Assembly (NCBI GenBank): GCA_009829735.1
Contig: CM020619.1
Coordinates: 30,344,063 to 30,408,062, forward strand
DNA from: Pyropia yezoensis
Lineage: Eukaryota; Rhodophyta; Bangiophyceae; Bangiales; Bangiaceae
DNA: 64,000 nucleotides
Direction: 5' to 3'
The translations under genes were made by a program, and so were the position numbers. The notes under the pieces are model-generated. The model was not told the origin of the DNA and did not search any database. It saw only the letters and a program-made list of their open reading frames with translations. Numbering within the stretch: position 1 is the stretch's first letter; each line of letters opens with the position of its first letter. Below are positions 8,561 through 41,340 of this stretch, piece by piece.

Positions 8561-8674
8561 TGGCTGCTTTTCGGCTTCGGCCATATGATACACTGGAAAA
8601 CAAACAGAGAAGATTAGCATGAGTCCTCGCGCAGAGATGACACACGTACAATCCGAAGAGTACCACTTTTTTTT
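8561..8674 (+). ncRNA. U6: U6 spliceosomal snRNA gene (complete, with T-run)
   Basis: The RNA is about 107 nt. It opens with a 5' stem (TGGCTG pairing with CGGCCA), followed by ACTGGAAAACA, the invariant ACAGAGA box joined to AGATTAGCATG (including the catalytic AGC), then the internal stem-loop and GATGACACAC. The stem-loop differs from human U6 by paired changes (CUC/GAG in place of human pairs) yet keeps the C.A mismatch and the bulged U, which argues for a working RNA. It ends in T8, as Pol III genes do. U6 forms the catalytic core of the spliceosome with U2. This is the only full U6 in the window; its 3' half, from base 8632, recurs at each LINE junction downstream. Confidence 0.93.
8667..8674 (+). 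terminator. U6: Pol III terminator of U6 (T8)
   Basis: Eight consecutive T directly after the U6 3' end, followed four bases later by a second T-run of seven (8679-8685). Such T-runs terminate RNA polymerase III on the non-template strand. Confidence 0.8.
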
Positions 8675-8711
8675 GGTATTTTTTTGGTGTGTTGAGCTAC
8701 GGAGTGGTGGG

Positions 8712-8734
8712 GGGGGGGTGTGACTCACCCCCCC
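8712..8734 (+). other. LINE 5' UTR hairpin
   Basis: Nine-base-pair stem, G7-TG pairing with CA-C7, around a TGACT loop, just before the first ORF1 ATG at 8763. It recurs in every copy (for example near 16361, 26076, 33723 and 50761). A stable 5' hairpin could protect or structure the element RNA; function is inferred. Confidence 0.6.
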
Positions 8735-8762
8735 ATCGCTTTTGTTTGCGTGGGGAAGCGGT

Positions 8763-11700
8763 ATGGGGGCGGATCGGGCGGTTTTGGTCGCTGTCTTGGC
8801 GGCGGTGGAGGCGGTCATCGCGGCGGCGACGGCCAAGTCGACGGCGACGGAGCGGAAAGCGCTGACAGTGGCTGTCATTTCGGCCTTGTCGGCCAACCAC
8901 GGGCCGTGTACCGGCAGCGACGGGGGTGTTGGTGGTCCTCGTCGGCGGGCGGGAACGCGTTTGGCGGGGGGGGTGGGGTCTTTCCCCTCCTCGCCGGCAT
9001 CGGGCGGGGGTGGGCCCACCCCTACTCCTCTGTCCCCCGCGGCAGGTGCAGCGGCGGCGGGCAACGTGACGGCGGACGCGGTGGCGGCGGCAGCGAGCGG
9101 CACGGCGGCGGCCTCGGCGGCGGCCGAGGGCGCGGCGCCCTCCTCGGCGGCCGCAGCAAGCGGTGGGGCGTGCTCGGCGGGTGCCCCGGGCGCATCGCCC
9201 CCCTCGGGGGGGCAGAGGCTCCCCCTGCGGTGGAGGGGGGGGTAAACGCTCGGGTTACCTGGGCTGAGGCGGTCCGCCGCAGCGGCAGCCTGCGGGCGGC
9301 CGCCGAGGCAACGGTCCCGGCTGGGGGGGCAGCCGGCGGGGCGGGCCCGGCCCGCGGTGCGGCGTCGGCCGCCGCGCCAAAGACGTCGGCCGAGCGCGCG
9401 GCGGCGGCGGCCGCCGCGCTCACGCGTGTGGCCGGCCGGCGCGGGACGGTCGCCCCGTTGGCGACCGTCTACGTGGCCGGCGTGTCGCGTGACGCGCGCG
9501 CCCACCGCCTACGCTCCCTCCTGGTGGACCTGACAGGAGTGGACGCGCATGCGGTGGTGGACGTGGACCGCTTTGGCGCCACCACCGCGGTGACGCTGGT
9601 CACGGACGCTACCGAGGCGTTTTGCGCGGCGGTGCGGGGCGGCCCAGCGGCCAAGGTGCTGACCCTGCTGCCGGCCGCCGACCCGTGGTCGGCGTCGCTC
9701 CTGGGCGCGCGCCGCCGTTCCCAGCTGTCGTGTGAGGCGGCGGCGGCCACAGCGGAGGATCTTTGCCGCCGCCGCCTCGAGGCCAAGCTCGGCCAGCTGG
9801 GCACGCGGGCTGGTATGCCGCCCCACGTGCGCGCGTCGCTGCGAGCGCACGTGGAGGCGGCGCTGGCCGCGCGCCCGGCGAGCGGGAAGCCGCGGGACGG
9901 CGCTGGCGGCGTGGGCGCGGGCGCGGGGCGTGCGGCGAGGTCGGCCGCGAGCGCCGGTGGTGGCGGATCGGCCACCGCTGGTGCACGCGTGGGCCCCGCG
10001 GCGCCCGCTGACGAGAGCGGAGACAGTGTTGCTAGTGTTGCCGCCGACGCTTCGGTGTCCGGCGGCGGATCCGCTGGTGTGGAGGGCACTGGGGGTGTCG
10101 CAGCGGCGGCGGCGGCAGCCGCCGCTGAAAAGGGGGGCGAAGCGGCCGAGGCGACCGCCGCCGCACTCGAGAGTGGCGGGGGTGCGGCTGCCGTGGCGGC
10201 CGCTGGCGAGCCGGCCGGCGGCGGATCGGCCGGCAGAAGGTCCGCTGGGTGCGCAGCGGCACCCAGTGGTGGGCCACCGACCACCGCCCCCGCGGGTAAG
10301 ACCGCGCGGCGGGCCCGAAAGGGCCGACGGGGCCGTGACGGGGCAGACGGCGGCGGTGGTGGCGGTTTGGAGGTGGCTGGCGGGGCCGTGGGCGGTGGCG
10401 ACGACGCCGCGGGGAGTGCGGCCAACACGCCTGAGGGCGGGCGGGGGGCCATGGCCTCGTGCACGGACGGCCGTGCCGCCATGGCGTCTGCCCCCGGCGG
10501 CCACGCCGATAGGGACGCCCCCATGGACGTGGACGACGGGGGCGGATCGACTGACGGCCGGCCGGCCGTTGACGCAGTTGGTGGCGTTTCGGCTGGCGGC
10601 GGTTCTGGCCCGGCCTGTGCGACGGTCATCGAGACTGTGGCCGTGACCGGCCGGACGGCCAGCACGTCTGAGCGTGGGCCGTCGCGCGACCCCGCCACCG
10701 GGGGGGGGAGTGACGCGGCAGTGGGCAGCCGCGCGGCGACTGCGTCTGCCCCCGCCGTCCCAGGCGGCGGCGGTTACGGTGGTGGACCTGCGCGGGTGGG
10801 TGCCACGGGCGGGACGGCGGACGCGGCGGTTGGCGGACGTGCCACCGCCACGGCAGGCCCCGGCAAGCCACGCCAGGGGGAACACCCCAGGGGTGACGGC
10901 GCCAATTTGGCGACCGTGGACCCCGTGCCGCCGCCGCCCGACCCGCCGCTAAATACTACGGCGGGGATGGAGGGGGTGGTGATGGCGGGGGAAAGGGATT
11001 TTGCACCCCTTCTCGGGACGGCCGCGGTGCCGTCAATCTCAACGGCCGGCGGCACTGCCGCCGCGCCGCCCGACACAGCCACACCACGCCGTCCGCTTGC
11101 AGCGGAGAGTTTCGGCTGGCCGCGCCGGGCCGCAGCGCCCGCGCAGCCGCTGGCTGCCTCCACGCCGACGGATGCCAGCGCCCCCCCAGCGACAGGCGCA
11201 GCTGCAGCCGCCATGGCCCCTGCCGCACGGCGGCCGCCGGCGCCCACCGATGCCCCGACGGCGTCCTCAGCCTCGGCGGCCTCAGCCGAGGGGGCGTGCA
11301 TGCCGCCCCCCCCGGCGCCGATCCCCCCGACCCTGGCCGCGGCCACGGCGCTGGCGGCGGCGGTGCGTGTCCCCGGCCTGCCCCCACGAGCTGCCGTCAA
11401 GGCGACCCGCCGCAAGCGGGTGCGGGGCACGGCCACCGCCGACGGCGCAGCAGCCGCCGACGCTACCACGCGCCGCACCGCTGGCACTGCGCCGGGCGTG
11501 GCGCCGGCGAGGGCGATCGCCAAGGTGCGATCCCGCGCCGCCGCCCCGGCGACTCCACGCTTCCACCCGCCCCCTGCAGCGGGGGACACGGACGTCCCCA
11601 CCACGCCAGCCAATGAGCTGGCGCGGGCGGCCGTCCTCCCGACGTCGGCGTGGCCGACGGCCGCGGCTGGCGGGGCGGACGCCCAGATCGGGGGGGTGAC

Positions 11701-11821
11701 CGCCGATGCGGCCACGCCGGACGACCCCCCCGCCACCGCATCCTCGACGGCGGCCGCGGCGGCCTCACCGGCAGCGGCTGGCACCCCCCCCAACGTTAGC
11801 GACGAGCGTCGCCATGAGTGA
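8763..11821 (+). CDS. LINE copy 1 ORF1 (Ala/Gly-rich, RRM-like segment), one frame change
   Basis: Starts at ATG 8763 (MGADRAVLVAVLAAVEA) and ends at the TGA at 11819. About 1,000 codons, very rich in Ala, Gly and Pro. A segment near 9460-9690 (VYVAGVSRDARAHRLRSLL ... AVTLVTDATEAFCAAVRG) has the beta-alpha-beta-beta-alpha-beta look of an RRM, as in many LINE ORF1 proteins that bind element RNA. The C-terminal part has a basic stretch (KATRRKRVRG). The frame changes once near 9200-9240, where a C-run is one base shorter than in copy 4; this could be real or a base-calling error. The stop overlaps the ORF2 start as ATGAGTGA. Confidence 0.65.
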
Positions 11822-14800
11822 CGCTCGCGGGGGGGGGGGGGAGAGGCGGCCGGGGACCCCGCAGGGGGGGGCAGGCCGGCGCTGGAGTGCCACCCACAGG
11901 TGGGGGGGCACAGGGGGCTCCACCCACTGGGGTGGGGGCCCCCCCTGGGGAAGGCGGGGGGGGCCACGACGCGGTGCGGGAGCGGCTGGCCACCACTACG
12001 GTCTGTCCGGTGGCGGGCTGCGTGGAGAGGCTGGAGTGGGGGGTGACGTCGCAGGGGGGCATGGTCCACCTGCGACGCGCACACCTCCTCTCCGAGGTGC
12101 CGGCTGAGGTGGTTGCCGCGCTGCGGCTCAAGGCGTGCCGCTTCTGTGGGCACGCCTGGGAGGCGGAGAGGCGCATGGGGGCCAAGTCCCCCCTCTCTGC
12201 CCACGAGCCGCAGTGCCGGCTCAACCCCAAGCAGGTGCGCCACCGCTGGGCGGCGGCGGCGGCAGCTGGAGGCGGCGCGACGGACGCCAGCGGGGCGGGC
12301 AGCGGCAGCGGAAACGGGACGGCGACGGACGCGGCGGTGCTCAACCTCTTCGACAAGGACCACGCTGAGTGGCGGCGACGACTTTCTACCTTCCTGACCT
12401 TTGTGGCGCCCCCCGGCGCGGACTGGGCTCCGCTCGTGGCGTCCGGGGCACGCACGGTGGCGCACGTGCCGCACGTGCTGCTGGCGTCGTGGCGCCGGCT
12501 GGGAGCGGCGGCACTGGACTGGGCGCGGGTGGAGCCGCGGCAGCAGCACGCCTGGCTATGGCTGCTGGTGCTGCCGTCCCTCCTGCTCCACGTTCCCACC
12601 GCTGACCCCAAGCGGCGACACACTCCGCTGTCGCGCTTGGCTCGCGCGGCGGCGGTGCTGGATGGCGACTTTGCGGCGGCCCTGGCGGACCGCGACGCGG
12701 GGATCTGGCGGCCGCCCCCCTCTGGACAGGTGGGCACGGCCATTGGCACGGGGGCACCCAACGCGGGCCGGGGCGGCCGTCGCGCACGCGGCGCCGACGC
12801 AGGGGCCACACGACGGCCGACGGCGGCGCAGCGGCGGGCGCTGCGGCTAGTAGTGGCCGGGCGCCTCAGCGCCGCCGCCCGCGCCCTGACCGGCGATCCG
12901 CCGGCCCTGCGCACGCTGGAGGTCTGGCTGAAGGCACTGCGGCTGTTTCCCCGCGCCGGGCCCGGCCAGGCGACGCCCGCCTCGGTTGAGGCGGAATTTG
13001 CTGCGTCCCTTGCCCGGGCAGCCGAGTTCGGCGGCCGGGCCACGACACGCCGCCACGTCAGCCGGGAGGCGGTCACGCTGGCCATCCGGTCGGCGCCGCG
13101 GCGGTCGGCGCCCGGCCCCTCAGGGCTCCGGATGGAGCACCTGTGGGCGCTGGGTGACGCGGGCCGCGACGCCCTGGTCGGCGTGGTCTCCCTCATGGTG
13201 GGTGAGACGTCGGTCACGTGGGTGCCCGACGCCGCCAAGCGTGCCCTCGCCGGCGCCGACCTCTTGCTGCTGCGCAAGCCCGGCGGCGAAGACGCCGACG
13301 GGCTGCCCAAGCTGCGGCCCATCGGCATGCCGGAGGTGTTGCGCAAGCTGGCAGCGTCGGCGCTGGCGGGGACGGTGCGATCGGCGGCGGCGGAGCTGCT
13401 GGGGCCGCTCCAGCTGGGGGTGGGGGTGCCCAACGCGTGCGAGCGGGTCATCCACGCGTTAGAGGCCCACCTTGGGAGCAACCCCGACCACGCGGTGGCG
13501 CAGCTAGACTTCAGGAACGCCTTCAACAACGTGGCTCGTGCCGCAGCGAAGGCGTTCCTGAGCCGAGGCCTCCCCGTCGTCAACCACTACATGGAGTGGG
13601 TGTACGGCGGGGAGGGGCCACGCGTGTACGGCTGGGAGGACCCCGAGGGGGTCAACCACCAGCGGCTGTGGCTGACGGCCGAGCGGGGCGCCCAACAGGG
13701 CGACCCGCTCGGCCCCCTCTTGCATGCGGCGGCGCTGGCGCTCGTGCTGGACAGGGTCCGCGCAGCGTACCCCCACCTTTTTCTGGCCGCGTTCCACGAC
13801 GACGTGGTTGCAGCGGGCCCCCCCGACACGCTGGCCCGCCTGGTGGCCGACGCCGGCGAGTGGGGCGCCGGCATTGACGCCGAGCTGGCGCCTCACAAGT
13901 GTGTGGGATGGTCCCCCGCTGGGGCGCCTGCGCCGCCTGGGTGGGTTGGCGCGTGGAGCACCGAGGGGCTGTTGCAGTTCTCCGTCCCCCTCGGCTCGCA
14001 CGCGTACGTCACCGACGCGGTGGACAAGCTGGCGGACGAGATGAGAGAGCTGACGGACGCCATCGTGGCGCTCCCGCCCACCGCCCTCCAGGCGCAGCTG
14101 CTGCTGCTGCGGCTGACGGCTGGCCCCCGCTCCAACTTTTGGATGCGGGGGCTGCCGCTCGTGGCTGGCGCGCGGCTTGCGGCGTCGGTAGACCGCGACG
14201 CGCGCCGCGCGCTGGTCGCGCTGCTGTGCGACGCCCGTGACGCGGAGGCGACGCGGGAGGTGCTGTGCGCGCGGGCGGCCCTGCCGGTCTCCATGGGGGG
14301 CCTTGGGGTGGGGGGGCTCGCGCGGGTGCTGCCCGCTGCCGCACTGGCCTCATGGGTCAGCGCGCTGCGGGAGGGCCGCCTGGACTTCCAGGCCCTGGCC
14401 GCAATATTTGTGGCCTTGGGCGGCGTGCCGCCCCCGGCCGCTGCTGAGGCTGACGCGCCACGCCTGGCGCCGGCTGCCGGCACGCCGGCCGCGCCCCCCC
14501 CGGCGCCCAGCGCAGCGCCGCCTGCCGCGGCCACGCCGCCGCTGGCGCGGGGTCCTCAAGCGGGGGCCACCCTGGCAGTTGCGGCGGGGGGAGCCCGCGA
14601 CGTGGCGGCGGGTCTTGTGACGCGGGTCGCAGCCCCCCGCTCCCCACCTCCCACCGGCGTCGAATTTCGGCCGGTGCTGGGGGGGCGCACTGGCCGCCGC
14701 CGCCGCGGGGCCGCACGCGCCCAGAGCTTCCCCGCTGGCACTGCCGCGTGCCGTGCAACAGACGCGGGGCTTGCCGCTGGCGGGAGGCCACAGCTGCCAC

Positions 14801-15261
14801 AGCCGTCACCGCCGCCGTCGAGGCTGCCGCCGCCGCTGACAGCGACCTGCGCTCCTGTGGGGCGGCCCAGAGGAGTGGGACGGGGTCGGGGGAGGCAGCC
14901 GCGGCTCTTTCTCTGGCGGGGGCGCGACGGGGAGTGGGTGGAGGAGGAGCAGCCCCCCCTCGTCGACGACGACGACGATTGCGAGCCGCCGCCGACGCCC
15001 CCCCCCCCCCCCCCCAGCCGCTTTCTCTGCCGCCTTCCGGCGCGCAGGAGCTGGTGCGGGACCTGGTGGGGCTCCTGGACGCGCACAAGGCTCACGCGGT
15101 TGCCCCTGAGCAGGGGGACCTGTGGCGGACGCCGCCTGCTGGGGGCGGGGGGAGCGGGGGGGGCGCCGAGCGGGCGAGCACCCGTCGGCGAGCTGCCGCC
15201 TGCCGGGGGGAAGAGGAGTGTGGCTTCGGTGCGATCACCGACGACACGGCCGATGGCCTAA
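11814..15261 (+). CDS. LINE copy 1 ORF2: zinc fingers and reverse transcriptase
   Basis: The ATG at 11814 lies in the ORF1 stop (ATGAGTGA). A G13 run follows, after which the coding frame is the one open from 11818, so the start is in frame only if the run is one base longer, as in copy 3. The product has a C2H2 finger (CPVAGC ... HLRRAH), a second CxxC...H...C finger (CRFCGHAW ... HEPQC), a Trp/Leu-rich linker (WLWLLVLPSLLLH) and reverse transcriptase blocks: KLRPIGMPEVLRKL, motif A QLDFRNAFNNV, motif B QQGDPLGPLLHA, motif C FHDDVV (His where most LINEs have Ala). The useful frame leaves for the endonuclease frame at the C18 tract (14998-15015). Confidence 0.8.
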
Positions 15262-16274
15262 ATGGCCCGACGCCACACTCCTCCTTCACCTGGAAGGCGC
15301 TGCTTGCCGGGGAGGTGCCTGCCTCGCAGCGGGACCTCTCTCGCCCCGCCCAAGCTGCGGCGCGGGCCCGCCTGTGGGCGGAGCTGCCGGTCAGCGGTCG
15401 GGCGGGCCTGGCGGCGTGTCAGGGGCACGGCGCCGGCCTCTGGCTGTCGGCACTGCCGACGCCCGGTCCCTTTGGGACTGCCATTCCGGAGGCCGCCATG
15501 CGCGTGGCGGTGCGGATGTGGCTGGGCGTGAGCCCCCGGTCGGTGCCGCCCCCGCAGCGATGCCGCTGCGGGGCGGATGCGGATGCGGCCGGGCGCCACT
15601 TTCTGGAGCCCTGCTCTGAGCAGGAGGGACGCACCGGCCGCATCCACAACCGCATCACCTACCTGGTGGTGGCGGCGCTGCGGCGGGCGCCAGCGTGGGC
15701 AGAGGCGCGGGCAGAGGTGGGGCTGGATGGGGCCCGCGCCTCTCTCCGCCCCGACCTCCGCGCCGTCGAGGCGGCGACGGGGGTGGTGACGTGGGGGGAC
15801 GTCTCGGTAGCGTCCCCCTTTGCGGCGCGGGTGCAGCCACGGGCGGTGGCGACACCCATGGTGCCGGTGGCCGCGGTGGCCCGGGAGGCAGACAAGGTTC
15901 ACCATTATGGTGCCTCTCTGCCCTCCGGCCCGCCGCGGCACGAGTTTACTCCCCTCGTGTGGGAGCAGTTTGGCCGCGTTGGGCCCGCCACGGCGCGATG
16001 GCTCAAGGAGGCGCTGGCAGGCCCAGGCCTGGCGGCGCTGCGGACGGGGCTGCGGACGGACGTGTCCGTCGCCTTGTGGCGCTCGCACGCGCGGGCGGTG
16101 GCCGACGGCTACGCCCGCTGCTTTGCGGTGGACGACCCGGCCGCTGTGCTGGGTAGGGACTTGGGCTGGGAGGGGGAGGGGGGACCGGGTCGAGAGTTTG
16201 TTTGGGAGATTAGGGGCCTTTGCGGCCCCTACTTTCATCGGTCAGGAGGAGTTTATCCTTATCGATTACCCTGA
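15016..16274 (+). CDS. LINE copy 1 C-terminal endonuclease frame
   Basis: This frame is one base back from ORF2 and continues its domain order. It encodes the CCHC motif CRCGADADAAGRHFLEPC, then RIHNRITYLVV, RPDL and GDVSVASP, and ADKVHHY. Together these match the restriction-like (PD-(D/E)xK) endonuclease that site-specific LINEs use to nick their target. It has no start codon of its own at the right place, so it should be made as a fusion with the reverse transcriptase. Copy 1 has one G fewer than copies 2b and 3 in a run near 16180, which alters its last residues and runs it on to 16274; copies 2b to 4 end in ...RVCLGD at the TAG just before the 3' hairpin. Confidence 0.75.
16212..16230 (+). 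other. LINE 3' UTR hairpin, copy 1
   Basis: Seven-base-pair stem AGGGGCC/GGCCCCT with a five-base loop, about 50 bases before the 3' junction. It recurs at 25927, 33576 and 41231; copy 4 changes only the loop. In site-specific LINEs the 3' UTR fold is what the reverse transcriptase recognises, so this is a candidate for that role. Confidence 0.6.
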
Positions 16275-16279
16275 ATAAA

Positions 16280-16322
16280 CAGAGATGACACACGTACAAT
16301 CCGAAGAGTACCACTTTTTTTT
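16280..16322 (+). repeat. U6 3' half at the copy 1 / copy 2a junction
   Basis: Identical to bases 8632-8674 of the U6 gene: CAGAGATGACACAC through the T8 run. It follows the LINE 3' end (AATAAA) directly and lacks the U6 5' half, so it cannot encode U6. Read as a target-site duplication. Confidence 0.9.
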
Positions 16323-19300
16323 GGTATTTTTTTGGTGTGTTGAGCTACGGAGTGGTGGGGGGGGGGTGTGACTCACCCCCCCATCGCTTTTGTTTGCGTG
16401 GGGAAGCGGTATGGGGGCGGATCGGGCGGTTTTGGTCGCTGTCTTGGCGGCGGTGGAGGCGGTCATCGCGGCGGCGACGGCCAAGTCGACGGCGACGGAG
16501 CGGAAAGCGCTGACAGTGGCTGTCATTTCGGCCTTGTCGGCCAACCACGGGCCGTGTACCGGCAGCGACGGGGGTGTTGGTGGTCCTCGTCGGCGGGCGG
16601 GAACGCGTTTGGCGGGGGGGTGGGGTCTTTCCCCTCCTCGCCGGCATCGGGCGGGGGTGGGCCCACCCCTACTCCTCTGTCCCCCGCGGCAGGTGCAGCG
16701 GCGGCGGGCAACGTGACGGCGGACGCGGTGGCGGCGGCAGCGAGCGGCACGGCGGCGGCCTCGGCGGCGGCCGAGGGCGCGGCGCCCTCCTCGGCGGCCG
16801 CAGCAAGCGGTGGGGCGTGCTCGGCGGGTGCCCCGGGCGCATCGCCCCCCCTCGGGGGGGCAGAGGCTCCCCCTGCGGTGGAGGGGGGGTAAACGCTCGG
16901 GTTACCTGGGCTGAGGCGGTCCGCCGCAGCGGCAGCCTGCGGGCGGCCGCCGAGGCAACGGTCCCGGCTGGGGGGGCAGCCGGCGGGGCGGGCCCGGCCC
17001 GCGGTGCGGCGTCGGCCGCCGCGCCAAAGACGTCGGCCGAGCGCGCGGCGGCGGCGGCCGCCGCGCTCACGCGTGTGGCCGGCCGGCGCGGGACGGTCGC
17101 CCCGTTGGCGACCGTCTACGTGGCCGGCGTGTCGCGTGACGCGCGCGCCCACCGCCTACGCTCCCTCCTGGTGGACCTGACAGGAGTGGACGCGCATGCG
17201 GTGGTGGACGTGGACCGCTTTGGCGCCACCACCGCGGTGACGCTGGTCACGGACGCTACCGAGGCGTTTTGCGCGGCGGTGCGGGGCGGCCCAGCGGCCA
17301 AGGTGCTGACCCTGCTGCCGGCCGCCGACCCGTGGTCGGCGTCGCTCCTGGGCGCGCGCCGCCGTTCCCAGCTGTCGTGTGAGGCGGCGGCGGCCACAGC
17401 GGAGGATCTTTGCCGCCGCCGCCTCGAGGCCAAGCTCGGCCAGCTGGGCACGCGGGCTGGTATGCCGCCCCACGTGCGCGCGTCGCTGCGAGCGCACGTG
17501 GAGGCGGCGCTGGCCGCGCGCCCGGCGAGCGGGAAGCCGCGGGACGGCGCTGGCGGCGTGGGCGCGGGCGCGGGGCGTGCGGCGAGGTCGGCCGCGAGCG
17601 CCGGTGGTGGCGGATCGGCCACCGCTGGTGCACGCGTGGGCCCCGCGGCGCCCGCTGACGAGAGCGGAGACAGTGTTGCTAGTGTTGCCGCCGACGCTTC
17701 GGTGTCCGGCGGCGGATCCGCTGGTGTGGAGGGCACTGGGGGTGTCGCAGCGGCGGCGGCGGCAGCCGCCGCTGAAAAGGGGGGCGAAGCGGCCGAGGCG
17801 ACCGCCGCCGCACTCGAGAGTGGCGGGGGTGCGGCTGCCGTGGCGGCCGCTGGCGAGCCGGCCGGCGGCGGATCGGCCGGCAGAAGGTCCGCTGGGTGCG
17901 CAGCGGCACCCAGTGGTGGGCCACCGACCACCGCCCCCGCGGGTAAGACCGCGCGGCGGGCCCGAAAGGGCCGACGGGGCCGTGACGGGGCAGACGGCGG
18001 CGGTGGTGGCGGTTTGGAGGTGGCTGGCGGGGCCGTGGGCGGTGGCGACGACGCCGCGGGGAGTGCGGCCAACACGCCTGAGGGCGGGCGGGGGGCCATG
18101 GCCTCGTGCACGGACGGCCGTGCCGCCATGGCGTCTGCCCCCGGCGGCCACGCCGATAGGGACGCCCCCATGGACGTGGACGACGGGGGCGGATCGACTG
18201 ACGGCCGGCCGGCCGTTGACGCAGTTGGTGGCGTTTCGGCTGGCGGCGGTTCTGGCCCGGCCTGTGCGACGGTCATCGAGACTGTGGCCGTGACCGGCCG
18301 GACGGCCAGCACGTCTGAGCGTGGGCCGTCGCGCGACCCCGCCACCGGGGGGGGGAGTGACGCGGCAGTGGGCAGCCGCGCGGCGACTGCGTCTGCCCCC
18401 GCCGTCCCAGGCGGCGGCGGTTACGGTGGTGGACCTGCGCGGGTGGGTGCCACGGGCGGGACGGCGGACGCGGCGGTTGGCGGACGTGCCACCGCCACGG
18501 CAGGCCCCGGCAAGCCACGCCAGGGGGAACACCCCAGGGGTGACGGCGCCAATTTGGCGACCGTGGACCCCGTGCCGCCGCCGCCCGACCCGCCGCTAAA
18601 TACTACGGCGGGGATGGAGGGGGTGGTGATGGCGGGGGAAAGGGATTTTGCACCCCTTCTCGGGACGGCCGCGGTGCCGTCAATCTCAACGGCCGGCGGC
18701 ACTGCCGCCGCGCCGCCCGACACAGCCACACCACGCCGTCCGCTTGCAGCGGAGAGTTTCGGCTGGCCGCGCCGGGCCGCAGCGCCCGCGCAGCCGCTGG
18801 CTGCCTCCACGCCGACGGATGCCAGCGCCCCCCCAGCGACAGGCGCAGCTGCAGCCGCCATGGCCCCTGCCGCACGGCGGCCGCCGGCGCCCACCGATGC
18901 CCCGACGGCGTCCTCAGCCTCGGCGGCCTCAGCCGAGGGGGCGTGCATGCCGCCCCCCCCGGCGCCGATCCCCCCGACCCTGGCCGCGGCCACGGCGCTG
19001 GCGGCGGCGGTGCGTGTCCCCGGCCTGCCCCCACGAGCTGCCGTCAAGGCGACCCGCCGCAAGCGGGTGCGGGGCACGGCCACCGCCGACGGCGCAGCAG
19101 CCGCCGACGCTACCACGCGCCGCACCGCTGGCACTGCGCCGGGCGTGGCGCCGGCGAGGGCGATCGCCAAGGTGCGATCCCGCGCCGCCGCCCCGGCGAC
19201 TCCACGCTTCCACCCGCCCCCTGCAGCGGGGGACACGGACGTCCCCACCACGCCAGCCAATGAGCTGGCGCGGGCGGCCGTCCTCCCGACGTCGGCGTGG

Positions 19301-21997: not shown

Positions 21998-22497
21998 NNN
22001 NNNNNNNNNNNNNNNNNNNNNNNNNNNNNNNNNNNNNNNNNNNNNNNNNNNNNNNNNNNNNNNNNNNNNNNNNNNNNNNNNNNNNNNNNNNNNNNNNNNN
22101 NNNNNNNNNNNNNNNNNNNNNNNNNNNNNNNNNNNNNNNNNNNNNNNNNNNNNNNNNNNNNNNNNNNNNNNNNNNNNNNNNNNNNNNNNNNNNNNNNNNN
22201 NNNNNNNNNNNNNNNNNNNNNNNNNNNNNNNNNNNNNNNNNNNNNNNNNNNNNNNNNNNNNNNNNNNNNNNNNNNNNNNNNNNNNNNNNNNNNNNNNNNN
22301 NNNNNNNNNNNNNNNNNNNNNNNNNNNNNNNNNNNNNNNNNNNNNNNNNNNNNNNNNNNNNNNNNNNNNNNNNNNNNNNNNNNNNNNNNNNNNNNNNNNN
22401 NNNNNNNNNNNNNNNNNNNNNNNNNNNNNNNNNNNNNNNNNNNNNNNNNNNNNNNNNNNNNNNNNNNNNNNNNNNNNNNNNNNNNNNNNNNNNNNNN
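21998..22497. other. Assembly gap, 500 N
   Basis: Exactly 500 N, a placeholder size used by scaffolding software, so the true length is unknown. Left flank ends at element position equal to copy 1 base 14356; right flank starts at the position equal to 12786. The element is therefore rewound by 1,571 bp across the gap. Confidence 0.95.
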
Positions 22498-26037: not shown

Positions 26038-26125
26038 GGTATTTTTTTGGTGTGTTGAGCTACGGAGTGGTGGGGGGGGGGTGTGACTCACCCCCCCATC
26101 GCTTTTGTTTGCGTGGGGAAGCGGT

Positions 26126-29100: not shown

Positions 29101-29182
29101 ATCCTCGACGGCGGCCGCGGCGGCCTCACCGGCAGCGGCTGGCACCCCCCCCAACGTTAGCGACGAGCGTCGCCATGAGTGA
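26126..29182 (+). CDS. LINE copy 3 ORF1, two frame changes
   Basis: Begins at the MGADRAV ATG and ends at the TGA at 29180. Same Ala/Gly-rich protein with RRM-like segment as in copy 1. The frame changes at the C/G runs near 26560-26610 and at a G-run near 27495 that is one base shorter than in copies 1 and 2a. All changes are in homopolymers. Confidence 0.6.
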
Positions 29183-33577: not shown

Positions 33578-33643
33578 GGGCCTTTGCGGCCCCTACTTTC
33601 ATCGGTCAGGAGGAGTTTATCCTTATCGATTACCCTGAATAAA

Positions 33644-33686
33644 CAGAGATGACACACGTACAATCCGAAGAGTACCACTTTTTTTT
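33644..33686 (+). repeat. U6 3' half at the copy 3 / copy 4 junction
   Basis: Identical 43 bases of U6 (8632-8674) again, including T8. Confidence 0.9.
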
Positions 33687-33774
33687 GGTATTTTTTTGGT
33701 GTGTTGAGCTACGGAGTGGTGGGGGGGGGGTGTGACTCACCTCCCCATCGCTTTTGTTTGCGTGGGGAAGCGGT

Positions 33775-36700
33775 ATGGGGGCGGATCGGGCGGTTTTGGT
33801 CGCTGTCTTGGCGGCGGTGGAGGCGGTCATCGCGGCGGCGACGGCCAAGTCGACGGCGACGGAGCGAGATTTGCTGACAGTGGCTGTAATTTCGGCCTTG
33901 TCGGCGAATCACGGGCCGCGTAGCGGCCACGACGGGGGTGTGGGTGGTCCTCGTCGGCGGGCGGGAACACGTTTGGTGGCGGGGGCGGGGTCTTCCCCCT
34001 CCTCGCCGGCATCGGGTGGGGGTGGGCCCTCCCCCACTCCCCTGTCCCCCGCGGCGGTTGCAGCGGCGGCGGGCAACGTGACGGCGGACGCGGTGGCGGC
34101 GGCAGCGAGCGGCACGGCGGCGGCCTCGGCGGCGGCCGAGGGCGCGGCGCCCTCCTCGGCGGCCGCAGCAAGCGGTGGGGCGTGCCCGGCGGGTGCCCCG
34201 GGCGCATCGCCCCCCCTCGGGGGGGCAGAGGCTCCCCCTGCGGTGGAGGGGGGGGTAAACGCTCGGGTTACCTGGGCTGAGGCGGTCCGCCGCAGCGGCA
34301 GCCTGCGGGCGGCCGCCGAGGCAACGGTCCCGGCTGGGGGGGCAGCCGGCGGGGCGGGCCCGGCCCGCGGTGCGGCGTCGGCCGCCGCGCCAAAGACGTC
34401 GGCCGAGCGCGCGGCGGCGGCGGCCGCCGCGCTCACGCGTGTGGCCGGCCGGCGCGGGACGGTCGCCCCGTTGGCGACCGTCTACGTGGCCGGCGTGTCG
34501 CGTGACGCGCGCGCCCACCGCCTACGCTCCCTCCTGGTGGACCTGACAGGAGTGGACGCGCATGCGGTGGTGGACGTGGACCGCTTTGGCGCCACCACCG
34601 CGGTGACGCTGGTCACGGACGCTACCGAGGCGTTTTGCGCGGCGGTGCGGGGCGGCCCAGCGGCCAAGGTGCTGACCCTGCTGCCGGCCGCCGACCCGTG
34701 GTCGGCGTCGCTCCTGGGCGCGCGCCGCCGTTCCCAGCTGTCCCGTGAGGCGGCGGCGGCCACAGCGGAGGATCTTTGCCGCCGCCGCCTCGAGGCCAAG
34801 CTCGGCCAGCTGGGCACGCGGGCGGGCATGCCGCCCCACGTGCGCGCGTCGCTGCGTGCGCACGTGGAGGCGGCGCTGGCCGCGCGCCCGGCGAGCGGGA
34901 AACCGCGGGACGGCGCTGGCGGTGTGGGCGCGGGCGCGGGGCGTGCGGCGGGGTCGGCCGCGGGCGCCGGTGGTGGCGGATCGGCCACCGCCGGTGCGCA
35001 AGTGGGCCTCGCGGCGCCCGCTGACGAGAGCGGAGACAGTGTTGCTAGTGTTGCCGCCACCGCTGCGGTGTCCGGCGGCGGATCCGCCGGTGTGGGGGGC
35101 ACTGGGGGTGTCCCAGCGGCGGCGGCGGCGGCCGCCGCGGAAAATGGAGGCGACGCGGCCGGGGCAACGGCCGCCGCGCACGAGAGTGGCGCGGGTGCGG
35201 CTGCCATGTTGGCCGCTGGTAGGCCGGCCGGCGGCGGATCGGCCGGTGGAGGGGCCGCTGGGGGTGCCGCTGCACCCGACGGCGGGCCACCGACCACCGG
35301 CCCCGCGGGTAAATCCGCGCGGCGGGGCCGAAAGGGCCGACGGGGCCGCGAGGGGGCCGACGGCGCCGGTGGTGGCGGTTTAGCGGTGGCTGGTGGGGCC
35401 GTCGGCGGTGGCGACGTCGACGCGGGGAGAACGGCCAACACGCCTGAGGGCGGGCGGGGGGCCTCGGCCTTGGCCACGGACGGCCGTGCCGCCACGGCGT
35501 CTGCCCCCGGCGGCCACGCCAATGAGGACGCCCCCATGGACGTGGACGACGGGGGCGGACCGACCGGCGGCGGGCCGGCCGTTGACGCCGTTGGTGGCGG
35601 TTTGGCTGGCGGCGGTTCTGGCTCGGTCGGTGCGATGGCCAAGGTGCCTGACGCCGCCGCCGGGCGGACGGCCAGCACGCTTGCGGGCGGGCCGTCGCGC
35701 GACCCCACCACCGGGGGGGGGAGTGACGCGGCAGTGGGCGGCCGTGCGGCCACCGCGTCGTCCCCCCCGTGCCTGGCGGTGGCGGTTGCGGTGGTGGACC
35801 TGCGCGGGTGGGTGCCACGGGCGGGACGGCGGACGCGGTGGTTGGCGGACGTGCCACCGCCACGTCAGGCGCGGGCAAGCCGCGCCAGGGGGATCACCCC
35901 GGGGCAGACGGTGCCAATTTGGCGACCGTGGACGCCGTGCCGCCGCCGCCCGACCCGCCGCAAAATATTACGGCGGGGATGGAGGGGGTGGTGATGGCGG
36001 GGGGAGGGGATTCTGCATCCCCTCCCGGAACGGCGGCGGAGCTGCCAATCTCGACGGCCGACACAACCGCCGCCGCCCCGCCAGATACGGCCACACCGCG
36101 CCGCGCGCTTGCGGCGGACAGTTCCGCCAGGCCGCGCCGGGCCGCAGCGTCCGCGCAGCCGCTGGCTGCCCCCCCGCCGACGGCTGCCAGCGCCCCCCCA
36201 GCGACAGACGCGGCTGCAGCCGCAACCGCCGTGGCCGCACGGCGGCCGCCTGGGACCACCGACTCCCCGACAGCGTCGTCTGCCTCGGCGGCCCCTGCGG
36301 GGCGGGCGCCCATGCCGCCCCCCCCGGCGCCGATCCCCCCGACCCTGGCCGCGGCCACGGCGCTGGCGGCGGCGGTGCGTGTCCCCGGCCTGCCCCCACG
36401 AGCTGCCGTCAAGGCGACCCGCCGCAAGCGGGTGCGGGGCACGGCCACCGCCGACGGCGCAGCAGCCGCAGACGCTACCACGCGCCGCACCACTGGCACA
36501 GCGCCGGGCGTGGCGCCGGCGAGGGCGATCGCCAAGGTGCGATCCCGCGCCGCCGCCCCGGCGACTCCACGCTTCCACCCGCCCCCTGCGGCGGGGGACA
36601 AGGACGCCCCCACCACGCCAGCCAATGAGCTGGCGCGGGCGGCCGTCCTCCCGACGTCGGCGTGGCCGACGGCCGCGGCGGGCGGGGCGGACGCCCAGAT

Positions 36701-36833
36701 CGGGGGGGTGACCGCCGACGCGGCCACGCCGGACGACCCCCCCGCCACCGCATCTTCGATGGCGGCTGCGGCGGCCCCACCGGAAGCCGCTGGCACCCCC
36801 CCCAACGTTAGCGACGAGCGTCGCCATGAGTGA
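33775..36833 (+). CDS. LINE copy 4 ORF1, one frame change
   Basis: Open from ATG 33775 to 35994 and then, after a C-run near 35762-35768, in the next frame to the TGA at 36831. It is the best guide to the ORF1 N terminus, since here MGADRAV runs uninterrupted into the VNARVTW block and the RRM-like segment. Ala/Gly/Pro-rich linkers differ from copies 1 to 3 by substitutions and small in-frame indels, which suggests the frame has been under selection. Confidence 0.68.
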
Positions 36834-39800
36834 CGCTCGCGGGGGGGGGGGGGAGAGGCGGCCGGTGACCCCGCAGGGGGGGGCAGGCCGGCGCTGGAGT
36901 GCCACCCACAGGTGGGGGGGCACAGGGGGCTCCACCCACTGGGGTGGGGGCCCCCCCTGGGGAAGGCCCGGGGGGCAACGACGCGGTGCGGGAGCGGCTG
37001 GCCACCACCACGGTCTGTCCGGTGGCGGGCTGCGTGGAGAGGCTGGAGTGGGGGGTGACGTCGCAGGGGGGCATGGTCCACCTGCGACGCGCACACCTCC
37101 TCTCCGAGGTGCCGGCTGAGGTGGTTGCCGCGCTGCGGCTCAAGGCGTGCCGCTACTGTGGGCACGCCTGGGAGGCGGAGAGGCGCATGGGGGCCAAGTC
37201 CCCCCTCTCTGCCCACGAGCCGCAGTGCCGGCTCAACCCCAAGCAGGTGCGCCACCGCTGGGCGGCGGCGGCCGCAGCTGGAGGCGGCGCGACGGACGGC
37301 AGCGGAACAGGCAGCGGCAGCGGATCCGGGACGGCGGCGGACGCGGCGGGGCTCTACCTCTTCGACAAGGACCACGCCGAGTGGCGGCGACGACTTTCTA
37401 CCTTCCTGACCTCTGTGGCGCCACCTGGCGCGGACTTGGCGCCGCTAGTGGCGTCCGGGGCACGCACGGTGGCGCACGTGCCGCACGTGCTGCTGGCGTC
37501 GTGGCGCCGGCTGGGGGCGGCGGCGCTGGACTGGGCGCGGGTGGAGCCGCGGCAGCAGCACGCCTGGCTATGGCTGCTGCTGCTGCCGTCCCTCCTGCTC
37601 CACGTTCCTACCGCTGACCTCAAGCGGCGACACACTCCGCTGTCGCGCCTGGCACGCGCGGCCGCGGTGCTGGATGGCGACTTCTTCGCAGCCCTGGCGG
37701 AACGCGACGCGGGGATCTGGCGGCCGCCCCCCCCTGGACAGGTGGGCACGGCCATTGGCACGGGGCCACCCGGCGCGGCTCGGGGTGGCCGTCGCGCACG
37801 CGGCGCCGACGCAGGGGCCACACCACGGCCGACGGCGGCGCAGCGGCGGGCGCTGCGGCTTGTCGTGGCCGGGCGCCTCAGCGCCGCCGCCCGCGCCCTG
37901 ACCGGCGATCCGCCGGCCCTGCGCTCGCTGGCGGTCTGGCTGAAGGCACTGCGGCTGTTTCCCCGCGCTGGGCCTGGCCAGGCGACGCCCGCTTCGGTAG
38001 AGGCGGACTTTGCTGCGTCGCTTTCCCGGGCAGCCGAGTTCGGCGGCCGGGCTACGACACCCCGCCACGTCAGCCGGGAGGCGGTCACGCTGGCCATCCG
38101 GTCGGCGCCGCGGCGGTCGGCGCCCGGTCCCTCAGGGCTCCGGATGGAGCACCTGTGGGCGCTGGGTGACGCCGGCCGCGACGCCCTGGTCGGCGTGGTC
38201 TCCCTCCTGGTTTGTGAGACGTCGGTCACGTGGGTGCCCGACGCCGCCAAGCGTGCCCTCTCCGGCGCCGACCTCTTGCTGCTGCGCAAGCCCGGCGGCG
38301 AAGACGCCGACGGGCTGCCCAAGCTGCGGCCCATCGGCATGCCGGAGGTGCTGCGCAAGCTGGCAGCGTCGGCGCTGGCAGGGACGATGCGATCGGCGGC
38401 GGCGGAGCTGCTGGGGCCGCTCCAGCTGGGGGTGGGGGTGCCCAACGCGTGTGAGCGGGTCATCCACGCGTTAGAGGCCCACCTTGGGAGCAACCCCGAC
38501 CACGCCGTGGCGCAGCTTGACTTCAGGAACGCCTTCAACAACGTGGCTCGTGCCGCGGCGAAGGCGTTCCTTAGCCGAGGCCTCCCCGTCGTCAACCACT
38601 ACATGGAGTGGGTGTACGGCGGGGAGGGGCCACGCGTGTACGGCTGGGAGGACCCCGAGGGGGTCAACCACCAGCGGCTGTGGCTGACGGCCGAGCGGGG
38701 CGCCCAGCAGGGCGACCCGCTCGGCCCCCTCCTGCACGCGGCGGCGCTGGCGCTGGTGCTGGACAAGGTCCGTGCGGCGTACCCCCACCTGTTCTTGGCG
38801 GCCTTCCACGACGACGTGGTTGCGGCGGGCCCCCCCGACACGCTGGCCCACCTGGTGGCCGACGCCGGCGAGTGGGGCGCCGGCATTGACGCCGAGCTGG
38901 CGCCTCACAAGTGTGTGGGATGGTCCCCCGCTGGGGCGCCTGCGCCGCCTGGGTGGGTTGGCGCGTGGAGCACCGAGGGGCTGGTCCAGTTCTCCGTTCC
39001 CCTCGGCTCCCACGCGTACGTCACCGACGCGGTGGACAGGCTGGCGGACGAGATGCGGGCGCTGACGGACGCCATCGTGGCGCTCCCGCCAGCCGCCCTC
39101 CAGGCGCAGCTGCTGCTGCTGCGGCTGACGGCTGGCCCCCGGTCCAACTATTGGATGCGGGGGCTGTCGCTCGTGGCTGGCGCGCGGCTTGCGGCGTCGG
39201 TGGACCGTGACGCGCGCCGAGCGCTGCTCGCGCTGCTGTGCGACGCCCGTGACGCGGAGGTGACGCGGGAGGCGCTGTGTGCGCGGGCGGCCGTGCGGGT
39301 CTCCATGGGGGGCCTTGGGGTGGGGGGGCTCGCGCGGGTGCTGCCCGCTGCCGCACTGGCCTCATGGGTCAGCGCGCTGCGGGAGGGCCGCCTGGACTTC
39401 CAGGCCCTGGCCGCAATATTTGTGGCCTTGGGCGGCGTGCCGCCCCCGGCCGCTGCTGAGGCTGACGCGCCACGCCTGGCGCCGGCTGCCGGCACGCCGG
39501 CCGCGCCCCCCCCGGCGCCCAGCGCAGCGCCGCCTGCCGCGGCCACGCCGCCGCTGGCGCGGGGTCCTCAAGCGGGGGCCACCCTGGCAGTTGCGGCGGG
39601 GGGAGCCCGCGACGTGGCGGCGGGTCTTGTGACGCGGGTCGCAGCCCCCCGCTCCCCACCTCCCACCGGCGTCGAATTTCGGCCGGTGCTGGGGGGGCGC
39701 ACTGGCCGCCGCCGCCGCGGGGCCGCACGCGCCCAGAGCTTCCCCGCTGGCACTGCCGCGCGCCGTGCAACAGACGCGGGGCTTGCCGCTGGCGGGCGGT

Positions 39801-40279
39801 CACAGCTGCCACAGCCGTCACCGCCGCCGTCGGGGCTGCCGCCGCCACCGCCGCTGACAGCGACCTGCGCTCCTGTGGGGCGGCACAGAGGAGTGGGATG
39901 GGGTCGGGGGAGGCAGCCGCGGCTCTTTCTTTGGCGGGGGCGCGACGGGGAGTGGGTGGAGGAGGAGCAGCCCCCCCTCGTCGACGACGTCGGCGATTGC
40001 GAGCCGCCGCCAGCGCCCCCCCCCCCCCCCCCCAGCCGCTTTCTCTGCCGCCTTCCGGCGCGCAGGAGCTGGTGGGGGACCTGGTGGGGCTCCTGGACGC
40101 GCACAAGGCTCACGCGGTTGCCCCTGAGCAGGGGGACCTGTGGCGGACGCCGCCTGCTGGGGGCGGGGGGAGCGGGGGGGGCGCCGAGCGGGCGAGCACC
40201 CGTCGGCGAGCTGCCGCCTGCCGGGGGGAAGAGGAGTGTGGCTTCGGTGCGATCACCGACGACACGGCCGATGGCCTAA
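36826..40279 (+). CDS. LINE copy 4 ORF2: zinc fingers and reverse transcriptase
   Basis: The ATG at 36826 overlaps the ORF1 stop (ATGAGTGA). A G13 run puts the long frame, open from 36899, out of step with that ATG, as in copy 1. Zinc fingers and reverse transcriptase motifs are all kept (FRNAFNNV, GDPLGPLLHA, FHDDVV) despite many substitutions relative to copies 1 to 3, mostly silent or conservative. The frame switches at the C18 tract 40016-40033. Confidence 0.78.
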
Positions 40280-41232
40280 ATGGCCCGACGCAACACTCCT
40301 CCTTCACCTGGAAGGCGCTGCCTGCCGGGGAGGTGCCTGCCTCGCAGCGGGACCTCTCTCGCCCCGCCCAAGCTGCGGCGCGGGCCCGCCTGTGGGCGGA
40401 GCTGCCAGTCAGCGGTCGGGCGGGCCTGGCGGCGTGTCAGGGGCACGGCGCCGGCCTCTGGCTGTCGGCACTGCCGACGCCCGGTCCCGTTGGGACTGCC
40501 ATTCCGGAGGCCGCCATGCGCGTGGCGGTGCGGATGTGGCTGGGCGTGAGCCCCCGGTCGGTGCCGCCCCCGCAGCGATGCCGCTGCGGGGCGGATGCGG
40601 ATGCGGCCGGGCGCCACTTTCTGGAGCCCTGCTCTGAGCAGGAGGGACGCACCGGCCGCATCCACAACCGCATCACCTACCTGGTGGTGGCCGCGCTGCG
40701 GCGGGCGCCAGCGTGGGCAGAGGCGCGGGCAGAGGTGGGGCTGGATGGGGCCCGCGCCTCTCTCCGCCCCGACCTCCGCGCCGTCGAGGCGGCGACGGGG
40801 GTGGTGACGTGGGGGGACGTCTCGGTAGCGTCCCCCTTTGCGGCGCGGGTGCAGCCACGGGCGGTGGCGACACCCATGGTGCCGGTGGCCGCGGTGGCCC
40901 GGGAGGCAGACAAGGTTCACCATTATGGTGCCTCTCTGCCCTCCGGCCCGCCGCGGCACGAGTTTACTCCCCTCGTGTGGGAGCAGTTTGGCCGCGTTGG
41001 GCCCGCCACGGCGCGGTGGCTCAAGGAGGCGCTGGCAGGCCCAGGCCTGGCGGCGCTGCGGACGGGGCTGCGGACGGACGTGTCCGTCGCCTTGTGGCGC
41101 TCGCACGCGCGGGCGGTGGCCGACGGCTACGCCCGCTGCTTTGCGGTGGACGACCCGGCCGCTGTGCTGGGTAGGGACTTGGGCTGGGAGGGGGAGGTGG
41201 GGACCGGGTCGAGAGTTTGTTTGGGAGATTAG
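40034..41232 (+). CDS. LINE copy 4 C-terminal endonuclease frame
   Basis: Same restriction-like endonuclease as in copy 3 (CCHC, RPDL, GDVSV, DKVHHY), ending ...GTGSRVCLGD. Nearly identical to copies 1 to 3 in contrast to the diverged middle of this copy. Confidence 0.76.
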
Positions 41233-41298
41233 GGGCCTTTGGGGCCCCTACTTTCATCGGTCAGGAGGAGTCTATCCTTATCGATTACCCTGAATAAA

Positions 41299-41340
41299 CA
41301 GAGATGACACACGTACAATCCGAAGAGTACCACTTTTTTT
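41299..41340 (+). repeat. U6 3' half at the copy 4 / copy 5 junction
   Basis: Same U6 segment with seven instead of eight T at the end. Confidence 0.88.

Follow-up and report, generated by a model that had tools for sequence, protein, structure and literature searches.

The array described here, from a red alga that is likely Pyropia yezoensis, consists of LINE copies joined by their 3' ends to one base of a U6 snRNA gene. We consider it quite probable that this LINE is one of at least four sister families that differ in the small RNA gene to which they are fixed, and that the 3' part of the target, with a terminator-like trailer, precedes the LINE in every family, an arrangement by which insertion likely restores the target gene. 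The window is the whole stretch of 64,000 nucleotides analysed; C2 is the chromosome on which it lies, and C3 is another.

The LINE Array and the U6 Gene at Its Head

The sole Rfam match in the 64-kb window is to U6 (RF00026, 8562–8672, + strand), with 60.4 bits, above the gathering score of 44. This agrees with the initial annotation, which had the array begin at a complete U6 gene and expected a covariance model to score 8561–8674. From 8573 on, this U6 is identical to two other genomic U6 genes, both LINE-free and scoring 58.6 and 57.3 bits; the genome has about three U6 genes. Exact copies of the 25-mer that begins at 8632 stand at 16280, 25995, 33644, and 41299, always immediately behind ...TGAATAAA, which verifies all four of the junctions first annotated as placing the LINE 3' end (AATAAA) at U6 base 8632.

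The repeated unit had been taken to be the LINE itself. It actually opens with U6 8632–8674 and a 34-bp trailer (8675–8708), and the LINE starts at the G-run at 8709; the similarity of the sister families to the U6 LINE begins at 8709–8710. The array bounds also needed correction from 8561..41340: a fifth copy begins at 41299, is interrupted by two Ty3-type elements (41.4–50.8 and 51.6–62.4 kb, where both integrase and RNase H were found), resumes at 50758–51601 and 62399–64000, and breaks off at C2:30410150, beyond the window. Because this last C2 copy is truncated, the host U6 tail is unreadable there. Compared with the unit 8632–16279, copy 2 is 99.4–99.6% identical (in two pieces), copy 3 is 99.8% identical, and copy 4 is 95.3% identical. 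The copy number of the array is inexact, since a 500-N assembly gap (21998–22497) with overlapping contig ends lies inside copy 2; 22498–64000 is gap-free. The features of the array are as follows:

8573..8631, + strand: 5' part of the U6 snRNA (A), ahead of the insertion point, with the same sequence as in both LINE-free U6 genes
8632..8674, + strand: U6 3' part (B), T8 at its end; the LINE 3' end joins at its first base
8675..8708, + strand: trailer between U6 and LINE, 34 bp, likely element-borne
8709..16279, + strand: LINE copy 1, from G-run hairpin 5' end to AATAAA 3' end
16280..16356, + strand: junction, LINE 3' end, then U6 B piece and trailer
16357..25994, + strand: LINE copy 2, with the 500-N gap and duplicated contig ends
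25995..26071, + strand: junction, U6 B piece and trailer
26072..33643, + strand: LINE copy 3
33644..33720, + strand: junction, U6 B piece and trailer
33721..41298, + strand: LINE copy 4, 95% identical to copy 1
41299..41374, + strand: junction at which copy 5 starts, U6 B piece (T7) and trailer
50758..51601, + strand: LINE copy 5, second piece, rearranged, flanked by the two Ty3-type elements
62399..64000, + strand: LINE copy 5, third piece, running beyond the window to C2:30410150

Coding Capacity and Class of the Element

The element is a non-LTR retrotransposon: it has a reverse transcriptase, no LTRs of its own, and a constant 3' end at the insertion point. Its coding features in copy 1 are as follows:

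8720..11821, + strand: ORF1-like low-complexity reading frame, no Pfam match
12004..12216, + strand: two N-terminal zinc-finger-like motifs, C2H2 (12004–12084) and CCHC (12136–12216), by motif pattern
13303..13911, + strand: reverse transcriptase domain RVT_1 (Pfam, 6.8e-10), with an FHDD motif at 13792–13803
15561..15908, + strand: CCHC and PD-D...K motifs of restriction-like endonuclease type, by motif pattern and cross-family conservation

The reading frames shift near long C and G runs. For 12004..12216 and 15561..15908, we used motif patterns that we take to be those of zinc fingers and restriction-like endonucleases. The PD, D, and K residues are invariant across the U6, Ile, and Gly rows, and the CCHC is invariant in the two rows that cover it. 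The restriction-like endonuclease with zinc fingers that was originally proposed is thus a candidate assignment based on motifs conserved across families, and the endonuclease part has no match in Pfam or the PDB. The element is likewise a candidate member of the RLE-type LINEs (R2/NeSL/R4/CRE/HERO group), which have a C-terminal CCHC and a PD-D/E-K endonuclease behind the reverse transcriptase. Structure predictions for the reverse transcriptase and endonuclease pieces have pLDDT values of 38 and 36, too low to be of use.

Neither integrase nor RNase H was found in the three LINE reading frames put to Pfam, so this is not an LTR/Ty3 element. Nor does the LINE have a Pfam match to a transposase, and it shows neither the DDE transposase nor the 6–7 bp duplication that define Dada-U6. 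Utopia is defined by one site in U2 snRNA genes; here, five of six 3' ends lie at U6 and the sixth lies in non-U6 sequence. Two further candidate features were rejected. The hairpin at the G-run has z-scores of -3.05 in the U6 LINE (-4.42 with the U6 piece), -3.65 in Ile, and just -0.75 in Asp, and it was dropped as a general feature on account of the last value. An HDV-like ribozyme at the LINE 5' end was dropped as well, Rfam giving for 8560–9100 only U6 and three weak matches far below their cut-offs, with no HDV family.

Sister Families at tRNA Genes

In the ledger of insertions, LINE 3' ends were located by LINE sequence and compared with RNA-gene positions located separately. The 3' ends lie at the target in 14/14 cases for the tRNA-Asp(GTC) family and in 13/13 for the tRNA-Ile(AAT) family (12/13 by pattern; the 13th is also at tRNA-Ile on reading, a T-loop insertion having made the pattern miss it). 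The tRNA-Gly(CCC) family has all four readable 3' ends at its target, while a fifth runs into an assembly gap. The offset of the 3' end is constant within each family: 0 for U6, 2–3 for Asp, 0 for Gly, and, counted from the matched stretch, 82 for Ile. The Asp, Ile, and Gly families are, by these counts, target-specific LINEs. Three tRNA-Ile(AAT) genes are LINE-free, and we therefore gave up the idea that every gene of this kind is bound to a LINE.

In the U6 and tRNA families alike, each LINE is preceded by the 3' part of its own target gene and a T-rich trailer (the 22 places that match the LINE 5' end were read, apart from L052 and L054), and the sister families repeat this layout at more than ten loci. 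Behind the LINE 3' end, the host end of the gene was read seven times (Asp: L056, L057, and L061; Gly: L072 and L075; Ile: L088 and L101). In all seven, the trailer differs from that of the element, and none resembles the LINE 5' end. These host-specific 3' tails show that the tRNA sister families insert into real host genes. At four other places, the tRNA piece runs into another LINE (L058, L074, and L098) or its end is unread; the L074 tail runs into a diverged LINE 5' end, 77% identical to the Ile LINE over 126 bases.

U6 Junctions Elsewhere in the Genome

Genome-wide, five of the six 3' ends of the U6-family LINE adjoin U6 base 8632, one of them on another chromosome; four of these five junctions sit in one array. 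The fifth belongs to an independent, older copy on C3 (87 and 92% identical to copy 1, in two pieces); this junction is at C3:6691960, where the U6 piece is cut short before LTR-like sequence. The sixth 3' end, at C3:12703870, adjoins non-U6 sequence, and a degenerate U6 piece stands before the 5' end of that copy; the first refuting case named in advance, an end in unrelated sequence, thus occurs once. The expectation that most copies end at the same U6 position at independent loci holds for 5/6 of the ends, although the loci are only two. Taken at the level of sequence, these data support specificity of the LINE for the U6 site. The initial suggestion of a U6-targeting element accordingly survives in the position of the 3' ends, but not in the form of host insertions into the U6 genes that have a shared upstream block, both of which are LINE-free.

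This 53-bp upstream block is common to the two LINE-free U6 genes (local score 71 against a shuffle maximum of 27) and was not found at the array-head U6 (its best local scores of 21 and 17 stay below the shuffle maxima, which are 25), which suggests that the head U6 may itself have arrived with the element. It could thus be that the heads on C2 and at C3:12.73 Mb are off-target insertions of a LINE RNA starting in, or at the start of, U6; the U6 would then have been brought by the element, and on-target insertion would have taken place only into such U6 copies. The missing block at C2 fits this explanation, as does the head at C3:12.73 Mb, where base 8632 is preceded by about 20 U6-like bases (17/20 identical) and the 3' flank is not U6. 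Moreover, CGCGCAATG precedes both U6 heads (C2 and C3:12.73 Mb) and resembles the U6 junction CGCGCAGAG. Against it are the U6 junction at a third place, C3:6691960, and the clear entry of the tRNA sister families into host genes. We regard off-target heads as possible but doubtful.

Less probable still is a one-off capture, in which a 3' piece of U6 became the 5' head of an ancestral LINE and the array then expanded by template jumping or unequal crossing-over, with no targeting of U6. The concentration of 4/5 U6 junctions in one array of near-identical units would agree with such an origin, as would the copy without a U6 tail at C3:12703870, and SINEs with snRNA-derived heads have been published. 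The heads on C2 and at C3:12.73 Mb, however, have U6 upstream of base 8632, whereas the internal junctions of the window have none, as expected if the unit entered between two U6 parts. In addition, the three sister families are arranged in this way too, and their tails, which are specific to the host, place them in real host genes. We therefore judge a single capture unlikely.

The U6-family trailer carries the sequence TTTTTTTTGGTATT. The 8675–8708 trailer was not found behind either LINE-free U6 gene, and a similar trailer, with a U6 piece, precedes the LINE copy at C3:12728663. From this C3 head and from the sister families, it is likely that in the U6 family too the gene piece and trailer belong to the element.

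Element-Borne Gene Ends and Host Tails

Ten heads were read in the tRNA families: four Asp heads, of which two share an upstream flank, five Gly heads, and one Ile head. For four of the ten, the array also yielded a readable host end: L044/L056 and L043/L057 (Asp), and L094/L072 and L095/L075 (Gly). An Ile head and an Ile host end 235 kb away from it were left unpaired. In 4/4 pairs, the head continues into the element trailer, and behind the last copy stands the gene end of the host, which has a different trailer. Four tRNA-Gly heads have four different upstream flanks and one common trailer, GGGACTTGTTTTTG. In the Asp pairs, the T-loop insertion also differs between head and tail, and the tail at C2:23174623 has the sequence of two LINE-free tRNA-Asp genes. 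The Ile element piece is without the T-loop insertion that is present in its target at C3:10526 kb. In the tRNA families, the gene piece and its trailer thus belong to the element.

These observations bear on the explanation that the families are ordinary site-specific LINEs with a long target-site duplication, the 3' part of the RNA gene being host sequence and the element carrying nothing. There is a precedent, since tandem R1 arrays in Drosophila are explained by insertion into a 14-bp duplication (PMC2718515). Furthermore, the Asp head L044 and the internal copy L047 have the host-tail base a dozen bases past the junction, so that a portion of the rebuilt gene may derive from host sequence by duplication; and in Gly only, the tRNA itself would look no different after a 30-bp duplication whose end coincided exactly with that of the tRNA. 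Nevertheless, a plain duplication of this kind in the tRNA families is ruled out by the differing trailers of the four pairs; the differing T-loop insertions in Asp and Ile and three more host ends, without a paired head, that also have non-element trailers speak against it as well. Long duplication as a general explanation is about as improbable as a one-off capture. Least probable by far is an assembly artefact through collapse or mis-joining of the array, which the gap and duplicated contig ends in copy 2 and the frame changes near C/G runs might suggest, but three of the four junctions fall in the gap-free 22498–64000, C3 has the same junction, and the sister families repeat the layout at their many loci.

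ARAGORN recognises tRNA-Gly(CCC) in 5/5 heads and, in the single Ile head that was read, tRNA-Ile(AAT). The number of intact tRNA-Gly(CCC) genes found is six. Among 15 element-borne Asp pieces, 0/28 sites vary in the two stretches beside the T-loop insertion, 6/15 vary in the insertion, 4/26 vary in the trailer, and 7/40 vary in the upstream stretch (including the LINE/host difference). This pattern fits a tRNA constraint and is not independent of descent.

A Proposed Gene-Restoring Insertion

The insertion could proceed as follows. The restriction-like endonuclease would nick the bottom strand of the RNA gene at the junction base, and reverse transcription, beginning at the LINE 3' end, would be primed at the nick. 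The opposite cDNA terminus, which copies the 3' part of the gene, would then pair with or join the upstream half of the target, which would restore the gene and its terminator upstream of the LINE. The restored gene would offer the same site again, and the entry of further copies would give head-to-tail arrays, to which unequal crossing-over may add copies. That insertion restores the RNA gene, and probably the target site too, would explain the arrays.

More broadly, we lean towards the view, drawn from comparison of sequences, that a LINE clade may mend the genes it breaks. Each family would parasitise one small RNA gene (U6, tRNA-Asp, tRNA-Ile, or tRNA-Gly), supply a spare 3' half and terminator, rebuild a working chimeric gene upstream, and re-create its own target, so that arrays would grow harmlessly; five of the six intact tRNA-Gly(CCC) genes would stand on LINE-borne 3' ends.

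Relation to Known Systems

Site-specific LINEs are thought to persist by targeting many-copy genes. About three U6 genes or six intact tRNA-Gly(CCC) genes seem too scarce a target for this strategy. In bacteria, islands and prophages at tRNA genes carry the 3' end of the target tRNA and restore the gene on integration; these are recombinase systems, with no reverse transcription. An element-carried gene end that restores the target would answer the scarcity puzzle, as bacterial islands restore tRNA genes. The Dictyostelium TRE elements are LINEs resident at tRNA genes, as are those described here; TRE elements insert near tRNA genes, not inside them.

One of the closest likenesses is to Utopia, as presented in the part of its description that was consulted (PMC4640811). 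Utopia is a LINE with a restriction-like endonuclease and N-terminal zinc fingers, it occupies one fixed point of an snRNA gene, a low-copy target, and the 3' part of the snRNA directly follows the LINE 3' end; the puzzle of a scarce target is openly stated there for U2. In Phytophthora, an intact U2 gene, and not a U2 5' fragment, lies upstream of Utopia. This was put down to deletion in that paper, whereas here a 3' part in front of the element would account for the intact upstream gene. Utopia also differs in its target (U2 as against U6 and tRNAs) and in its hosts (Amoebozoa, SAR, and Opisthokonta as against a red alga).

The site of Dada-U6 is nearly the same: according to the available sections, its duplication covers U6 65–70 (GCGCAA or GCGAAA), and the junction here falls between GCG and CAG; its relatives also target tRNA genes (PMC3706591, PMC8869645). 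Dada-U6 elements are, however, DNA transposons with a DDE transposase and a 6–7 bp duplication, and those sections describe no restoring of the gene. R2 and R1 share with the present LINEs target-primed insertion at a fixed base, in 28S rDNA, and some of their transcripts have 5' target sequence that pairs with the target (PMC2718515, PMC11331408). In the excerpts concerned, R1 tandem arrays arise through its duplication, and the sequence carried by R2/R1 is upstream target for pairing, not a downstream part that rebuilds the gene.

No earlier description of a U6-specific or gene-restoring LINE was found in the literature searched, the coverage of which is incomplete and no proof of priority. 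The families would add the interiors of U6 and tRNA genes to the targets of such LINEs, and sister enzymes with different short fixed targets may be of interest for RNA-templated gene insertion that spares the target gene. In a further LINE group (reverse transcriptase 56–62% identical; L077, L080, and L081 among seven single-end windows, together with L069 and L070, did not reach the end), 4/4 readable 3' ends lie at a common repeat.

A Probable U6-Targeting LINE Array

The array starts, as the initial annotation had claimed, at a complete U6 gene: an Rfam search of the window matches 8562-8672 to the U6 covariance model with 60.4 bits, and the sequence identity of this gene with two other U6 genes begins at 8573. 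The four junctions that had been read at U6 base 8632 are there as well, with the AATAAA of the LINE 3' end directly before 16280, 25995, 33644 and 41299. The identity of copies 2 to 4 to copy 1 ranges from 95.3 to 99.8%; the unit repeated in this way is made up as follows.

8632-16279, repeated unit: U6 3' part, trailer and LINE
8632-8674, U6 3' part with T-run
8675-8708, 34-bp trailer
8709, LINE start, at a G-run

The end of the array, which had been put at 41340, has to be moved, since a fifth copy, interrupted by two Ty3-type elements, continues outside the window before breaking off. Moreover, copy 2 contains a 500-N assembly gap (21998-22497) at whose flanks LINE sequence from the contig ends is duplicated, so the length of the array is uncertain. 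The reverse transcriptase (RT) domain of the LINE is clear (Pfam RVT_1). The zinc fingers and the CCHC/PD-D-K endonuclease attributed to the element are putative, being pattern matches; in a family alignment, the endonuclease residues are invariant among the U6, Ile and Gly rows, as is the CCHC of this region in the two rows covering it. The reading frames shift close to long G and C runs, where the shifts may be assembly errors or real.

Specificity for U6 Across the Genome

The 3' ends of the U6 family were gathered from the whole genome (107.5 Mb, 11 contigs) with the 180 bases at the 3' terminus of the LINE as the query. Five of the six adjoin U6 base 8632 without a gap, four of them in the window, which spans C2:30344063-30408062, and one at C3:6691960. 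The sixth, at C3:12703870, runs into non-U6 sequence; the 5' end of this copy lies 24.8 kb upstream, a distance due to a nested insertion, and has a degenerate U6 piece and a trailer of a similar kind in front of it. The proposed specificity of the family for the U6 site is therefore well supported, with one copy ending in other sequence; it is based on few independent U6 loci and does not extend to hits in promoter-bearing U6 genes. The genome contains at least three U6 genes according to Rfam, the best 47 of 2657 candidates having been scored. Two of these, on C1, have no LINE and have 46 of 53 upstream bases in common (score 71 versus 27 for the best of 100 shuffles); a local comparison did not find this upstream block before the U6 gene at the array head. 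In front of both U6-LINE heads, at window 8553-8561 and at C3:12728.68 kb, stands CGCGCAATG, a sequence similar to the U6 junction CGCGCAGAG.

Sister Families at tRNA Genes

A genome search with 8673-8931 gave 22 matches, namely eight of the U6 family, 12 beginning at window base 8709 or 8710, all of which stand behind a tRNA-Asp(GTC) piece, and two others. From the 135 matches of an RT domain search, two more families were read, in tRNA-Ile(AAT) and in tRNA-Gly(CCC). When the 3' ends of these families were gathered by LINE sequence, and hence independently of the target, all 14 Asp ends adjoined tRNA-Asp and four of the five Gly ends adjoined tRNA-Gly, the fifth running into an assembly gap. 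The Ile set, which consists of partial matches to the Gly query (74 bases, constant offset 82) and may be incomplete, gave tRNA-Ile by pattern in 12 of 13 cases; the remaining one proved on full reading to be a tRNA-Ile with an insertion in the T-loop, and a further copy read separately (L088) is consistent with the same junction. For all families together, 36 of the 37 readable 3' ends meet the gene of their own family at one constant base; the single exception is a U6-family copy.

Two loci (L098 and L099) contain a second tRNA-Gly subfamily, which has a trailer of its own; at the first of them it comes after a first-subfamily LINE. At another locus (L074), a Gly LINE has a tRNA-Gly 3' part behind it, and after this come a trailer of a further kind and the 5' end of a diverged LINE, which may represent a third subfamily. 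In a different LINE group (L071, L076, L078 and L079), whose RT shows about 61% identity, the elements end at a repeat close to CCTRCTAGTGRACGGCCGACAATTACCC; this repeat has no Rfam match.

Origin of the Gene End Upstream of the LINE

The sequences show that, in the tRNA families, the gene end preceding the LINE belongs to the element. Four Gly heads (L094-L097) have one identical trailer and four differing upstream flanks. Seven host gene ends could be read behind LINE 3' ends (Asp L056, L057 and L061; Gly L072 and L075; Ile L088 and L101), and all carry a trailer other than the element's; BLAST found no resemblance between them and five LINE 5' ends, while the same test does recover the LINE that follows each of the five Gly heads. 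Four of the seven form head/tail pairs within one array (L044/L056, L043/L057, L094/L072 and L095/L075), as paired by order and strand from reads of the array ends rather than of the intervening sequence. Head and tail also differ in their T-loop insertion in both Asp pairs. Plain target duplication is ruled out for the tRNA families by these differences in trailers and T-loop insertions.

The tail at C2:23174623 is identical to two nearby LINE-free tRNA-Asp genes. The Ile element piece is without a T-loop insertion, whereas one is present in its target at C3:10526 kb and in three tRNA-Ile genes that carry no LINE. At three loci (L058, L074 and L098), the tRNA piece behind the LINE 3' end runs into another LINE, not host sequence. 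In one Asp head (L044), the base a dozen past the junction matches its host tail, as if host sequence gave way to element sequence within the tRNA; because an internal copy (L047) shares this base, it is only a hint. The T-loop insertions, of about 11-15 bases, are gene-specific in nuclear tRNA-Asp and tRNA-Ile genes (L056, L057, L060-L063, L091-L093 and L101) and are probably ectopic introns.

Probable Gene Rebuilding and Array Growth

The complete gene at an array head would consist of a host 5' part and an element 3' part. ARAGORN called tRNA-Gly(CCC) in all five Gly heads as well as in the single LINE-free gene, and tRNA-Ile in the only Ile head read; it made no call for the Asp heads, which carry the T-loop insertion. 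The array-head U6 outscores the LINE-free U6 genes (Rfam), and a search allowing up to two mismatches gave six intact tRNA-Gly(CCC) genes, five of which run into element sequence.

The proposed mechanism is that the endonuclease nicks the target at the fixed base, target-primed synthesis starts from the LINE 3' end, and the cDNA, which would terminate with the copied 3' part of the gene, is joined to the upstream half of the target through pairing. The rebuilt gene would offer the target base again, such that a new copy could enter between the two gene parts, which would produce the observed order of full gene, LINE, 3' part, LINE, 3' part.

The tandem arrays of R1 are explained similarly, via target duplication (PMC2718515), and for R2 the cDNA is described as pairing with target sequence (PMC11331408). 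Utopia, which inserts in U2, has its layout in common with these LINEs, and the intact U2 gene upstream of it in Phytophthora is explained by its authors by deletion (PMC4640811); a carried gene end would be an alternative reading. A seemingly new feature is that the element carries the downstream part of the gene, with a terminator-like T-run. The literature searched yielded no earlier description of a U6-specific or gene-restoring LINE. The Dada-U6 elements, which are DNA transposons, target nearly the same U6 bases (PMC3706591, PMC8869645), so at least two kinds of mobile element have come to use this spot.

Ty3-Type Elements in Copy 5

Behind the pol of each Ty3-type element lies a long antisense ORF:

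48007-50121, minus strand, 704 aa
59003-61891, minus strand, 962 aa

Their products are related to each other (25% over 189 columns, E 2e-9), and neither has a Pfam match. The element at 41375-50757, in which a Chromo match is weak and below the cut-off, lies within the 5'-terminal G-run of LINE copy 5. At C3:6692.0 kb, another LTR-like sequence was seen by eye inside the same kind of G-run.
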